NCBI GenBank assembly: GCA_016793115.1
Contig: JAEUIN010000273.1
Span: 124,001-188,000 of the forward strand
Source: Planctomycetaceae bacterium
Lineage (GTDB): Bacteria > Planctomycetota > Planctomycetia > Pirellulales > PNKZ01
Direction of reading: 5' to 3'
Length of the DNA: 64,000 nucleotides
Made by a program: the position numbers and the translations under genes. Numbering within the stretch: position 1 is the first letter of the stretch; the number at the start of each line of letters is the position of its first letter. Under the pieces are notes generated by a model. That model ran no database searches, was not told where the DNA came from, and saw only the letters and a list, made by a program, of their open reading frames with translations. Of the stretch, positions 5,565 through 11,470 are shown in pieces.

Positions 5565-6383
5565 TTGAATCCTTCCCTCACGGTCGTCGTGCCTGTCTGC
5601 AATTCGCAATCGAGCCTGCCCCGTCTGATCGACGAACTTCTCGAGGTTGTGCCGGAACTCACATCCGACTTCGAAATCGTGCTCGTCGACGACGGTTCGA
5701 CCGATGCGACCGTCGAGATCGCCCAAGAGCTTTCGCTTCACTTCCCCCAAGTGCAACTCTTAGTCCACCCCCAGCGACTCGGCCCGCAGGAAGTGCTCCG
5801 CAGCGCTCTACGATACTCGCACGGCCAAACGCTCTTGGCGCTTCGCAGCGACTCGGATTTCGACCCACATGAATTGCCGAAGGTTTGGTCGCACCGAATG
5901 GAAGACGACGCCGTGATCGCCCGCTATAGCGGAGCGGCAGGCTCCCTCGGCACGATTCCGCAGACACCGCAGCGCCTGACCGAGAAGTATTCCGGGAAGA
6001 CGACGACAGTCGCCGCGGTGCCGTTTCCCGATTTGGTGTTAGTCCCGCGAAGAATCCTTGTCGGCTGGCAACAAATGGCCGAGCGACCGGCGTTAGTGTC
6101 GTACCTCAAAACTCGTGGCTACCAAACGCCTTCGGTCATAGTGCGTCCGCGTCGCTTACGGCGTCCGCCGGCCGCGTTGATCGCGGCGCTGGAACAAATG
6201 AAGGTCGCCGTGAGGCAGGGGGGCGTCGTGTCGGCGGTGTCCGCCCTGCCCGCGGCGGGCGTCAACGCGACGACGCCGGCCATCCGCAGCGCAAATCAAC
6301 TCGACGGCGCGCCGAGAGGCGAACGTCCGCGCGGCCCAAGCTATTTGTTAGCAAGACTGCGTGCCTTCGCAACGGGAGAGTAG
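5565..6383 (+). CDS. family 2 glycosyltransferase-like protein
   Basis: A 272-residue GT-A-fold protein with a typical N-terminus: LTVVVPVCNSQSSLPRLIDE, then FEIVLVDDGSTDAT (nucleotide-sugar binding) and LALRSDSDFDP in the place of the DxD metal site. It is shorter than full GT2 enzymes and has no membrane segment; the C-terminal ~80 residues are basic and low in complexity. Activity is uncertain because the usual acceptor-side motifs were not found. A TTG start at 5565 is chosen because AGGA stands about 8 nt upstream and the GT fold begins at once. The same frame stays open upstream to 5346, but that extension does not resemble protein. Confidence 0.7.
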   Translation: MNPSLTVVVPVCNSQSSLPRLIDELLEVVPELTSDFEIVLVDDGSTDATVEIAQELSLHFPQVQLLVHPQRLGPQEVLRSALRYSHGQTLLALRSDSDFDPHELPKVWSHRMEDDAVIARYSGAAGSLGTIPQTPQRLTEKYSGKTTTVAAVPFPDLVLVPRRILVGWQQMAERPALVSYLKTRGYQTPSVIVRPRRLRRPPAALIAALEQMKVAVRQGGVVSAVSALPAAGVNATTPAIRSANQLDGAPRGERPRGPSYLLARLRAFATGE

Positions 6384-6421
6384 GCGGCGGAATCCGACAT
6401 CGGAAATAATCTCCGGCGTGC

Positions 6422-6450
6422 TTGTCGGCACTTGATAAAAGCGCTATGAT
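6422..6450 (+). promoter_or_regulatory. sigma70-type promoter
   Basis: TTGTCG (6422-6427) and TATGAT (6445-6450) are separated by exactly 17 nt, close to the housekeeping consensus. Transcription would begin around 6457, just before the structured region and about 300 nt upstream of the HTH gene. It is seen in sequence only. Confidence 0.6.
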
Positions 6451-6456
6451 TTTTTC

Positions 6457-6706
6457 TGAACCGCGAAGGGGGTAGTTGCGTACTTCGCGTATGCCGGGTG
6501 CAGGTCACCTACGGTCAGTCTGAGCCGAGCCGAACGACGAAGGGCAAGTCGTCGTTCCCTGTGGTTTTGCGGATTGATGCTTCGGTGTTCGTTGTCACTG
6601 GTGAGGCTTTCGGGCCGTCCGCGATTCAGGCCGATCGGGTTCGTCCGTAGGACACCCGTCTTGGTCCGTCAATCGCGGAGACGCCGAAAGCGCGGGCTTG
6701 TCCCGC
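6457..6706 (+). ncRNA. candidate structured RNA or long structured leader
   Basis: A 250-nt non-coding stretch rich in complementary pairs. CCGCGAA (6461-6467) can pair with TTTGCGG (6566-6572, one G-U), closing a 112-nt domain that contains a 9-bp hairpin (GAACGACGA with TCGTCGTTC, 6532-6557 region, 8-nt loop) and a short arm near 6477-6494. A second domain pairs GCTTTCGG (6606-6613) with CCGAAAGC (6684-6691) and TCCGCGATT (6618-6626) with AATCGCGGA (6671-6679), enclosing an inner hairpin built from CGGGT/ACCCG and GTCC/GGAC. A GCGGG/CCCGC hairpin follows at 6692-6706. No tmRNA, SRP, RNase P or known riboswitch motif was recognised. It could be an independent RNA or the leader of the HTH gene at 6758; no poly-U terminator is present. 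Confidence 0.45.
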
Positions 6707-6757
6707 CGACCGCGACGATGAACGCTCGATCGATCCAGCGGAACGATTAGTAAACTC

Positions 6758-7384
6758 ATGAGTGTTTACGAGTTTGACTTGCCCTCCGCCGCAATGCCGG
6801 CGATCCCGCTCCCACCCGTCGCGAAACTCCATGCGGCGGCGGAACCGCGTCTATCCAACCCGGAAGAAGCCAGTCGGTTTCTCGACGAGGCGTTCGCCGA
6901 CGAAACCTCGCAGCCCCTGCCGCGTAAAAGCTGCGGGCCGATGCATCGGGTGCAAGAGGTGAGGCGCGAACAAGGGATCTCGATTCGTCGCGCGGCCCAG
7001 CTGCTACGTTGCACCGTCGAACAGGCTCGCCAGTTGGAGGATCCGACGAACGATCTTACACTCGCTCAGATCTACGAATGGCAGCGGGTGCTCGAAGTCC
7101 CAGTAAGCGATTTACTGGTGGAGCCGTATGCTCCGCTGTCCGCTCCGGTGCTTGAGCGGGCCCGTATGGTGCGGCTGATGAAAACCGTGCAGGCAATCGT
7201 CGAACGCTCGAACCAGCCGGCTATTCGTCGTTTGGGCGAGACGATGGCGCATCAGCTCGTCGAAGTCATGCCCGAGTTAAAAGACGTCTCTCCTTGGCAC
7301 TCGATCGAGCGCCGCAAGACTTGCAATCAAAACGCTCGCATTCTCGAAAGCGACTATCTGCGCAGCGACGACGACGAGGAATAG
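6758..7384 (+). CDS. Cro/CI-type HTH domain protein
   Basis: A 208-residue soluble protein. After about 60 residues of low-similarity N-terminus comes an XRE-like helix-turn-helix: VQEVRREQGISIRRAAQLLRCTVEQARQLE, followed by LTLAQIYEWQRVLEVPVSDLL, as in Cro/CI domains where the last helices close the fold. The C-terminal half is helical with an acidic end (DDDEE) and is not assigned. It is probably a DNA-binding regulator; targets are unknown. It is preceded by a 300-nt structured region with its own promoter. Confidence 0.75.
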   Translation: MSVYEFDLPSAAMPAIPLPPVAKLHAAAEPRLSNPEEASRFLDEAFADETSQPLPRKSCGPMHRVQEVRREQGISIRRAAQLLRCTVEQARQLEDPTNDLTLAQIYEWQRVLEVPVSDLLVEPYAPLSAPVLERARMVRLMKTVQAIVERSNQPAIRRLGETMAHQLVEVMPELKDVSPWHSIERRKTCNQNARILESDYLRSDDDEE

Positions 7385-7484: not shown

Positions 7485-8486
7485 TCATTGCACCGTCTGC
7501 GGCGTCTTCTCGATCAAATCGCGCAACACTTGGTCGGCGTCGATCTGTTCGGCTTGAGCTTCGTAATTGAGCAAGATGCGATGCCGCAGCGCCGGCATGG
7601 CGACGGTACGCAAGTCGTCGAAACTGACGTTGAATCGTTGGTCGAGCAAGGCGCGCACCTTGCCTGCGAGCACCATGGCCTGCGCACCGCGCGGCCCGGC
7701 TCCGTAACGCAACCATTTGTTCGCCGCCTCGCCGGCTTGCGGTCCGCCGGGATGGGAAGCGAGCACAAGCCGCACGGCGTAGTCTTGCACGTGCGGAGCG
7801 ATTACCACCTCGCGTACCGTCTGACGCATCGCCAAGATCCGTGCCGAGTCGAGCACGGCACCGGCCTCGACGTGCACCGTGCTCGTCGTTCGATTCAGGA
7901 CTTCGTGAAGCTCCGTCCGGGTCGGATAATCGGCCAGGACCTTGAAGAAAAATCGATCGAGCTGCGCTTCGGGCAGGGGATAAGTTCCTTCCTGTTCGAT
8001 CGGATTTTGCGTCGCCAAGACGAAAAAGGGCTGCGACAGTTTGTGCGTCGCTCCCGCCGTGGTCACCGACCCCTCCTGCATCGTTTCCAAGAGCGCCGAT
8101 TGCGTCTTGGGCGTTGCGCGATTGATCTCGTCGGCCAAGAGTAGCTGAGTAAAAACCGGCCCTCGACGAAATTCAAGCGAGCGCCGCCCGTCCATCGTTT
8201 CAATGAGCATGGTGGTGCCCAAAATGTCGGCCGGCATCAAATCGGGCGTGAACTGGATTCGCGAAAACTCCAATCGCAATGCTTGAGCGAGCGCGCGCAC
8301 AAGCAATGTTTTGCCCAGTCCCGGCACACCTTCGAGTAAGCAGTGACCGCCTGCGAACAGACACGTCAGCACCCCTTCGACGACGGACTCTTGTCCGACG
8401 ATCACTCGCCGCAACTGCTCATCAAGAGCTCCGTAGCTGCGCGTGAACTCCTGGGCCTGATGTTCGAGCGTCTCGGCGGTCGTCAT
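7485..8486 (-). CDS. MoxR-family AAA+ ATPase
   Basis: A 333-residue MoxR ATPase. It has Walker A GVPGLGKT (residues 53-60), Walker B LLLADEINRA (116-124), and the MoxR signatures ATQNPIEQEGTYPLPEAQLDRF and PGGPQAGEAANKWLRYGAGPRG. MoxR proteins act as chaperones that assemble or activate partners with VWA domains. The start codon overlaps the stop of the upstream VWA gene by 4 bp, so the two are probably translationally coupled. The DUF58 gene that commonly follows MoxR is not present downstream; the next gene converges. Confidence 0.95.
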   Translation of the reverse strand: MTTAETLEHQAQEFTRSYGALDEQLRRVIVGQESVVEGVLTCLFAGGHCLLEGVPGLGKTLLVRALAQALRLEFSRIQFTPDLMPADILGTTMLIETMDGRRSLEFRRGPVFTQLLLADEINRATPKTQSALLETMQEGSVTTAGATHKLSQPFFVLATQNPIEQEGTYPLPEAQLDRFFFKVLADYPTRTELHEVLNRTTSTVHVEAGAVLDSARILAMRQTVREVVIAPHVQDYAVRLVLASHPGGPQAGEAANKWLRYGAGPRGAQAMVLAGKVRALLDQRFNVSFDDLRTVAMPALRHRILLNYEAQAEQIDADQVLRDLIEKTPQTVQ

Positions 8487-11470
8487 GCGCGGTCCTGCGG
8501 GGAATTGGGGCTGTCGTCGGCACGGTCGGTCGAGTTCGATCGATCATAATCGACCGGACGACGTTCGGCTCGGGCACGCAGTTTCGCTTGCCGCAAGCGC
8601 GCCGCGTAACTCGTTTTAGAATCGACGGAAGAAGGCGAACTTGGTTCCGCAGTGCCGTCGGCGGGGGCGACGTTCGACCGATCGACCGTCGCCCGCAGTT
8701 TGTCGAATTTGCGGACTACCTCGCGCTTCCGCGCCGTCAATCGCGACAGAGCCGCGCCCCGTTCCGCGGCCGCCGCAGTCGCCGCCGGCCGACCGACAAC
8801 GCGGCGGAACGCTTCCGTTAACGGAGCAAAATCGACCGCAACACGCCTGACGAACACATCGGCTACGAACAGGATCAGCGCCACGAGCACCAGCGGCGGC
8901 CACGCATCACGCCGTCCCACGGCGCTCGGCAAATTACGCCGAAAGAAATCGCCGACTTGCCGCGGGACATTGCTCGCCGCGGTCACCGGCGGCGCGACCG
9001 TTCCCACGACGCCGTCCGCCGATTTCAAAGTGGCGAGCGAATCCAGCAATGCCAAGTTCGGTTCACGATCGCGCAATTCCGGTGAATAAGAAACGGCCGC
9101 TCCTGCCCGCACTGTCGGCTGCCCCGGCGCCGGCCGAACGACGATAAAATAGCTCCCCACGTCCGTCGCCGGGAACGTCGCCGAATAGCGCCCCGGCGCG
9201 ATCTGTTCCAGCCTTAACGGCCTCGTCGTCAAGTCCGGCCCGACCAGCGTTCCCTGAGGGTCGAGCAAGTTTTGCGCTTCGCCGCTCTCGTCGACGGCCG
9301 TCATGATAAGTTGCCCGATCCCGTCCTCAATCTCGGCGCTCATGGCGAAGCGGCCGCTCGTCGGCGGTGGGCGCATCGTCCAGCGAATGAGCCCTGTGAG
9401 CAAACGATCGAACTGCGGCCAGTCGTTCCACTGCGCCGCCCAATTCGCACCGCAATCGGTCGTCCACACCGCGCTTCGACCGAGTCCATAGCTCCACACG
9501 GCGGCAACCGTTCCCGTCCCCTCATCGGCAAACTTCGGATTCGCCAGCAGCGACTGCGCGAGCGAACTCGACTTGCGCTGCGTCAGAATCATTCCGGTCA
9601 ACGGCGGCAGCGGTCCGTCGATTCCGCGCAGGACCTCATGCGTCGGGCTTTCGCGTCGCACGTCAATTCCCTCGGCCCGTTCATACACCAGCGGCCGCGC
9701 GACCCGCATTGCCTCAAGCATGAAAATCTTTGGTATTTCCTCAGGCGTACCGAGCGGATAGAACCGGCCGCCGCCGCCCCGCGCCATACCGTCGAGCAAT
9801 AGACCGTTGCTGTCCGGCCCGACGGCGACTGTCGTCGTCGTGATTCCGCGGGCTTTCATCTCGGCGGCTTGTTTTTCTAAGCCCTCGCCCGCCGTGAGCC
9901 CGTCCGTTAGGGCTATGAGGTGTTTCACAGCTCCCTTGGAATTGAGCAATGCTTCGTAGGCTTCGTCGAGCGCGGGCTTCATATCGGTGCCGCCGCCGGC
10001 GGAGATTCCGCCGATTTGCCTGAGCACGCGAGTGAGCGAGTCGATGGGCGCGAGCGGCACGATCCAATGCGGTGATGAGTCGAACGCCACGACTCCGACC
10101 GAGTCTTTCGCACCGAGCACGCGAACGGCGGCGGCCGCCGCGCGGCGACTCATGTCGAGTTTCGGACCCATCATCGACCCGGAGCTATCGATTAGGAGCG
10201 CCAATGCGCCGCCTGCGACAACCTTCACGTTTTTGATCTGAAAGTCGACCGGCATCGCCGCTTCAACCGGCGAGTTCGCCCAGCCTCCCGCGCCGAACGA
10301 GTTCGGCCCGCCGAGCATGACCAGACCGGATCCCATCTCGCTTACGTTGGTAGCGAGCATCCGCACTTGTTCGTCGCCGAATGCGACGACGTCGTCCGCC
10401 GAGTCGCCGCCGGAGCGCGGAACGTCGGCCAGCACGACCGTATCGAATGCGAGCAATTCCGCCGGAGATTGAAATAGCCGATTGCTCGGCATGACGACGA
10501 CTTCCAGCTTCTCGCGCCGCAGCGCTTCCACAAGTCGCGCATGCCGGCCACGATCTTGGAAGTTCTCGATGAGGAGCACGCGGCCCGAACCTGCAAGCTG
10601 CGTGAAATTGCTCGCGCGGTTGTTCTGCGGTCGCGGATCGGCAAGCGCATCGTCAGGCGTGAACGACGCCTCATATTCATAAAAGTCCGGCGCATCGAGC
10701 GTCTGTTGCACTTGGAAAGTTCGCTTCCCTCCGGACCACTCAACTCGCTGTTTGCCGAGTAGCGTCGTCTCGCCGCCCCGACGACGAGCCAGTTCCAGCG
10801 TGCCGGCAACGGGCTTCGACACATCGGCTCCGACATGGTTGAGTAGCACTTGCACATCGAACGGCTCGCCGCGCCTTGCGATGGCGGGCAAAGTCACCTT
10901 CTCCACGAGCACATCGCTTAGCGGCGGTGCGACGACTGGTACCACGTCGATGCCGATCCCTTGATCGACCGCGGCCCGCGCTTCGTCGTACACGTCGCCG
11001 ACGTTGGCGTTGCCGTCCGATACGACGACGATCCGCCGCGCCATGCCGGCGGGAAACGAAGCCTCAGCCAAGCGCAGCGCGCCGGCGAGGTTTGTTCGCC
11101 CTGAGTCGACGATCGCGAGGAAGTCGGGCGAGAGCGTCAGTCGCTCCGCTTGCGGCGGCGATTCAGTGCGCGCCTCCCGTCCGAAGACGACGACGCCGAC
11201 CCAATCCTCACCGAGGCGGCGTCCGGCCAACGATCGGTTTACATAGTCGACCATCGCGCGACTTTCCGCTTGCGGAATGCTTTGCGATCGGTCGAGGAGA
11301 TAAATCACCGTGAGGCGAGCATCGGTTCGCACCCACTGCATCTCGGAGCACGCGGCCACGACGAGCAGCCAAACGAGGGACCGCAACCCCAGCGCGGCCG
11401 CTCCGCGGCGCCGTCCCAGTCCGCCCACGCGGCGTCGCCACCACCACCAAAACAGCGGCAGCGCGGCCAA
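8483..11470 (-). CDS. large membrane protein with two VWA domains
   Basis: A protein of about 995 residues. An N-terminal membrane segment is followed by VWA-like domain 1 (YLLDRSQSIP, residues 57-66), a glutamine-amidotransferase-like region (LVMLGGPNSFGAGGW), and VWA domain 2 with an intact MIDAS (DSSGS at 427-431, then GGGTD). Beta-rich repeats and a C-terminal membrane helix (WPPLVLVALILFVADVFV) follow. Such proteins belong to BatA/YfbK-like systems worked on by MoxR, whose gene overlaps this one. The start is unresolved: TTG at 11470 is the last possible conventional start, yet conserved-looking coding sequence (PFSIAFDRPAYLALL) continues in frame upstream to about 11515, with no ATG/GTG/TTG before the stop at about 11560. 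Confidence 0.88.
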   Translation of the reverse strand: MAALPLFWWWWRRRVGGLGRRRGAAALGLRSLVWLLVVAACSEMQWVRTDARLTVIYLLDRSQSIPQAESRAMVDYVNRSLAGRRLGEDWVGVVVFGREARTESPPQAERLTLSPDFLAIVDSGRTNLAGALRLAEASFPAGMARRIVVVSDGNANVGDVYDEARAAVDQGIGIDVVPVVAPPLSDVLVEKVTLPAIARRGEPFDVQVLLNHVGADVSKPVAGTLELARRRGGETTLLGKQRVEWSGGKRTFQVQQTLDAPDFYEYEASFTPDDALADPRPQNNRASNFTQLAGSGRVLLIENFQDRGRHARLVEALRREKLEVVVMPSNRLFQSPAELLAFDTVVLADVPRSGGDSADDVVAFGDEQVRMLATNVSEMGSGLVMLGGPNSFGAGGWANSPVEAAMPVDFQIKNVKVVAGGALALLIDSSGSMMGPKLDMSRRAAAAAVRVLGAKDSVGVVAFDSSPHWIVPLAPIDSLTRVLRQIGGISAGGGTDMKPALDEAYEALLNSKGAVKHLIALTDGLTAGEGLEKQAAEMKARGITTTTVAVGPDSNGLLLDGMARGGGGRFYPLGTPEEIPKIFMLEAMRVARPLVYERAEGIDVRRESPTHEVLRGIDGPLPPLTGMILTQRKSSSLAQSLLANPKFADEGTGTVAAVWSYGLGRSAVWTTDCGANWAAQWNDWPQFDRLLTGLIRWTMRPPPTSGRFAMSAEIEDGIGQLIMTAVDESGEAQNLLDPQGTLVGPDLTTRPLRLEQIAPGRYSATFPATDVGSYFIVVRPAPGQPTVRAGAAVSYSPELRDREPNLALLDSLATLKSADGVVGTVAPPVTAASNVPRQVGDFFRRNLPSAVGRRDAWPPLVLVALILFVADVFVRRVAVDFAPLTEAFRRVVGRPAATAAAAERGAALSRLTARKREVVRKFDKLRATVDRSNVAPADGTAEPSSPSSVDSKTSYAARLRQAKLRARAERRPVDYDRSNSTDRADDSPNSPQDRA

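Follow-up and report, generated by a model that had tools for sequence, protein, structure and literature searches.

A conserved folded leader that probably controls a helix-turn-helix regulator gene in one order of planctomycetes

The window, meaning the whole 64 kb stretch of planctomycete DNA that was analysed, holds an intergenic stretch at 6422-6757 that is flanked by a glycosyltransferase gene (stop codon at 6383) and a gene for a helix-turn-helix (HTH) protein (ATG at 6758). The original prediction had placed a promoter, TTGTCG-17-TATGAT at 6422-6450, at the head of this stretch, followed by a gene-free, structured RNA candidate. A consensus scan found that promoter to be the sole sigma-70-like match in 6300-6860, and no other gene is apparent between the glycosyltransferase stop and the HTH start, so both claims stood. 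Read from the scan together with conservation among orthologue leaders, the promoter is CTTGTC-N17/18-TATGAT (6421-6450, forward strand), and GCGCTATNATT of the promoter region is kept in the alignment of the window's own family. Transcription would be expected to start near 6457.

The HTH gene (6758-7384, forward strand) encodes 208 amino acids and is labelled an XRE/lambda-repressor-like regulator from its open reading frame, its structural matches and its order-wide orthologues. The protein matched no Pfam family. Its AlphaFold model, with a mean pLDDT of 74, was matched by Foldseek to lambda-repressor-type HTH domains (best E 0.006), and the label is an assignment of predicted fold, not of function. 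Of 297 genomes of the order, which we infer to be Pirellulales, 234 have a relative of the gene, and none turned up in 144 genomes tested from other parts of the phylum. Shortly ahead of the start codon lies a CGGAAC box (6739-6744, forward strand) that recurs among the orthologues: 30 of 108, across families, have it within 100 nt of the start, mostly at -18 to -30 and near the ribosome-binding region, while its reverse complement is found in the same 100-nt zone in 4 of 108. On the reverse strand, 7485-11470 holds a gene for a MoxR-type AAA ATPase, convergent to the HTH gene, and after it a long open reading frame resembling a VWA-domain membrane protein; as read from the sequence, the MoxR neighbour seems to be retained beside the HTH orthologue in genomes G002 and G003.

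Folded as RNA, 6457-6757 reaches -135 kcal/mol, with a z of -3.3 on the forward strand. The candidate had been described as far above what neighbouring gaps show, and for folding energy this did not hold. The complementary strand scores nearly the same (z -3.2), and 46 evenly spaced 300-nt control pieces of the window (mean z -0.94, sd 1.23) include two below -4, lower than the leader, so that its energy is unexceptional for this DNA. Nor is stability a constant feature among the leaders of 12 orthologues (z -3.4 to +1.3); over 13 leaders, the window's included, z averages -1.4. Folding energy is thus weak evidence and alone would not carry a claim of structured RNA; the element exceeds chance because of the comparative signal.

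The helices proposed for the leader were mostly recovered in the minimum-energy fold. The exception is the closing pair CCGCGAA/TTTGCGG, in whose place CGCGAAG (6462-6468) pairs with CTTCGCG (6483-6489) as a 5' hairpin; a reading of L004, one of the genus relatives, gives a comparable CGCGA/TCGCG hairpin, which is weak support. The 9-bp hairpin, here called H2 (6532-6557), is present, as are a large 3' hairpin formed by GCTTTCGG/CCGAAAGC (6606-6613/6684-6691), its inner helix TCCGCGATT/AATCGCGGA (6618-6626/6671-6679) and a small hairpin GCGGG/CCCGC (6692-6696/6702-6706), all on the forward strand. Aligned with it, the leaders of the two nearest (genus) relatives show no sign of the large 3' hairpin, which carried much of the original case; this hairpin is apparently species-specific and may be an insertion into the leader or a product of chance folding. 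No conservation of the small hairpin was seen. Of the multi-domain architecture first proposed, then, the 5' domain stood and the large 3' domain seems particular to the species: as judged from the compared leaders, conservation covers about the first 120 nt, with two sequence boxes (A and B) and a hairpin. A terminator search of 6300-6860 yielded H2 alone, at chance level, and no convincing terminator separates the 3' part of the leader from the start region. Neither a terminator nor a sequestered ribosome site was recognised in the leader as an expression platform, and of the short upstream open reading frames that can be read in it none was seen on inspection to be conserved.

The two boxes were found by comparing the oriented upstream regions of 117 orthologues or paralogues of the HTH gene, taken from genomes that are mostly drafts or MAGs. 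Box B, GGGCAAG (6542-6548, forward strand), lies in the loop of H2 and is the most frequent 7-mer in these regions, occurring in 39 of 109 vs 2 in control stretches further upstream, and in 40 of 117 vs 6.3 in shuffles. Box A, CGGTCAG (6512-6518, forward strand; consensus CGG(N)YCAG), recurs in seven families, standing 27-36 nt before GGCAAG in members of f1 (the window's own family), f2, f5, f7, f11, f17 and f19. Both boxes occur together in 24 of the 117 upstream regions; dinucleotide shuffles give 0.5 (at most 4), the reverse strand gives 3 and the control stretches give 1. These counts are to be read with the facts that members were found partly through their defining boxes and that related genomes are not independent. 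In the window both boxes occur at three places, and a hairpin of more than four pairs accompanies them at the leader only. A search of the 297 genomes for the exact string GGGTCAG-N-GGGCAAG was uninformative, since it was about as frequent as its reversed control. Upstream of most leaders with box B, CTTG-N17/18-TANNAT is found at the matching place, typically 86-142 nt before the box, so the boxes should fall within the transcribed leader.

Hairpin H2 has nine pairs, GAACGACGA/TCGTCGTTC (6532-6540/6549-6557). Its arms vary between families yet still pair, reading GAACGACG, TTTGAGTGACA, TCCGGCGC, TTCGGCACC, GCGGCGCT, GCGACGTT or CGAACGC. Because a MAFFT alignment of H2 across families put the arms out of register, pairing was evaluated with an arm-swap test, in which the 3' arms are exchanged between species. 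Over 26 H2 sites the native score was 6.35 vs a mean of 4.02 (sd 0.24) for exchanged arms, and 0 of 5000 permutations reached the native score. For H1, the hairpin around box A, native pairing also lies above that of swapped arms (9 of 2000 reach it); this signal comes mostly through f7, and the hairpin is weak in the window. The comparison within the window's own family covered five sequences, the three closest of which have almost the same arms. The H2 loop AGGGCAAGT (6541-6549) is also a perfect 9-nt complement of ACTTGCCCT (6777-6785) in the first HTH codons. Genus relatives keep seven of these pairs (one of them G-U), other families do not keep the pairing, and across the order it is perfect in the window only; it could be a local mechanism or chance.

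Compensatory change is clearest in family f7. In its 14 sequences, two-sided changes were found in 17 of 26 pairs, 85.8% of cells are paired vs at most 46.8% in slid registers, and the covariation score is 0.440, where shuffles give 0.216 and slid registers no more than 0.176. The f7 leaders hold GGGCAAG as a bulge, followed by an inserted hairpin, within the covarying stem, and their third hairpin (H3) has a nearly invariant UGAU loop (ANUGAUN) inside a covarying stem. The window leader has ATTGATG at 6573-6579 (forward strand), whose TGAT is common to the genus relatives L004 and L005, and this UGAU box is a possible counterpart of the f7 H3 loop. A covariance model, R1, was built from the f7 sequences and run on the 297 genomes. 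Matches below E 1e-7 were found in 19 genomes, at one place each and all just upstream of an HTH orthologue. Five or more of the 19 did not contribute to the model (G127, G178, G182, G198 and G206 among others), and no paralogue of the HTH gene had a strong match. R1 does not score family f1, the window leader included, so homology of its leaders with those of f7 is argued from boxes A and B, the hairpin and the shared position before the HTH gene. A match in G023 (E 5e-4) was set aside as chance, there being no HTH gene at that place (tblastn of an orthologue, E 7.5).

That the original prediction saw no match to tmRNA, SRP, RNase P or a familiar riboswitch motif agreed with the searches made. 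Rfam 15, whose families include riboswitches, 6S, tmRNA, SRP and RNase P, gave no match at the gathering score in the 64 kb window; up to E 10, only a sub-threshold tRNA-Sec (E 7.9) appeared in 6300-6900, and up to E 1 nothing credible appeared in the leaders of 20 relatives. BLAST of the leader in 57 relatives matched only upstream of the same HTH gene, and no second copy was found in the window's genome. The c-di-GMP-I (GEMM) riboswitch holds GGGCAA next to a helix, and the f7 members resemble it in reading GGGCAAGAACC or GGGCAAAACC; unlike it, the 20 members are without an Rfam match up to E 1, and inspection revealed no second half of the GEMM consensus. The literature search for an earlier description returned one possible predecessor, the Rhodopirellula-1 motif, a candidate cis-regulatory RNA from Proteobacteria and Planctomycetes (Weinberg et al. 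2010, PMC2864571) that is listed there without an Rfam accession, so that Rfam searches may not test for it. Like the leader it is described as a candidate cis-regulatory RNA in Planctomycetes; unlike the leader, whose gene has no relative in the 144 genomes of the phylum tested outside the order, it is also reported from Proteobacteria, the table of the paper giving taxa and a cis-regulatory mark (PMC2864571). Unless the leader is identical to Rhodopirellula-1, it is a new family of gene-specific structured leader.

Taken together, the probable reading of 6457 (approximately) to 6757 is that it forms the 5' untranslated leader of the HTH gene, made from its own promoter, and that its 5' part belongs to a conserved structured RNA family which would act in cis. 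Sequence comparison makes it very probable that the conserved folded leader is a new RNA for gene control and not a product of chance folding, and the new gene-specific family would span one planctomycete order, putatively Pirellulales. The original prediction had left a regulatory leader of the HTH gene and a new small RNA side by side. The leader is the one favoured here: the same gene follows it across many families, it keeps its place relative to the promoter and lies between this and the start codon of a single orthologous gene, its structure is kept by compensatory changes (the arm-swap test over families and the pair counts in f7), and it has no Rfam match. The association with a single gene and the position between promoter and start codon are also why control of the HTH gene in cis is favoured, and the leader probably exerts it.

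The leader would be transcribed from the HTH gene's own promoter and may act in cis on translation or on transcript elongation of the regulator. Its exposed loop boxes may be recognised in trans, by a protein, a small RNA or a ligand, or may pair with the start region, and the amount of the XRE-type regulator would in this way be set after transcription starts. Autogenous structured 5' leaders, for example those of ribosomal proteins, are similar in that they belong to a single gene family, are lineage-restricted and have, between promoter and start codon, loops with conserved nucleotides; unlike those of the ribosomal-protein type, the leader described here precedes a gene for an XRE-type regulator, and we know of no binding protein, RNA mimicry or RNA-binding product for it. 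It is a tentative further proposal, and a doubtful one, that the leaders are a new order-wide class of regulatory RNA with a ligand as its signal, or with the encoded XRE-type protein as its binding partner. Were the protein to bind it, a lambda-repressor-fold protein would be an RNA-binding autoregulator acting through GGGCAAG loops.

Among the competing explanations, a stand-alone or leader-derived small RNA survives best and is still unlikely. Its GGGCAAG loop would pair with targets elsewhere and its adjacency to the HTH gene would be a mere matter of locus, which would suit a structured element with its own promoter and a conserved loop box exposed as single strand. The association with one gene nevertheless holds over many families and is exclusive in f7, and no convincing terminator precedes the start region, H2 being the sole terminator-like match, at chance level; the evidence did not favour a free transcript over a leader. 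Next, and improbable, comes a new class of metabolite riboswitch. Conserved unpaired boxes held in covarying helices are what aptamers have, but a riboswitch class is usually found ahead of several unrelated genes in one pathway, whereas this element precedes a single gene family only and its architecture changes greatly between families. Autoregulation and binding to inverted repeats are common among XRE proteins, and H2 is a good palindrome that the HTH protein or another regulator might bind as a DNA operator. That its arms are free to vary while its loop is fixed is the opposite of operator behaviour, and with the extra hairpin that f7 members hold after GGGCAAG within the covarying stem it makes this explanation very improbable. 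Chance folding of GC-rich intergenic DNA, which the two lower control pieces and the uneven stability of the relatives' leaders would allow, is contradicted for the 5' part by the box statistics, the arm-swap test and the f7 covariation, and can there be practically dismissed.

For the favoured reading, a leader controlling the HTH gene in cis, the wider interest is that few regulatory RNAs of planctomycetes are described in the literature searched, and a covarying leader on one widespread, order-specific regulator offers a concrete and testable planctomycete case. It suggests that the level of the regulator matters enough for the order to keep post-transcriptional control of it.

Many orthologues, those of family f15 for example, are without box B and carry other leaders, and the conserved leader sequences in families without GGGCAAG may be diverged forms or replacements. 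Eight leaders without the box (L037, L041, L044, L064, L094, L102, L106 and L108, f15 among them) have a conserved sequence of their own, with CGGAACAGA about 200 nt upstream, and represent another leader type on the same gene.
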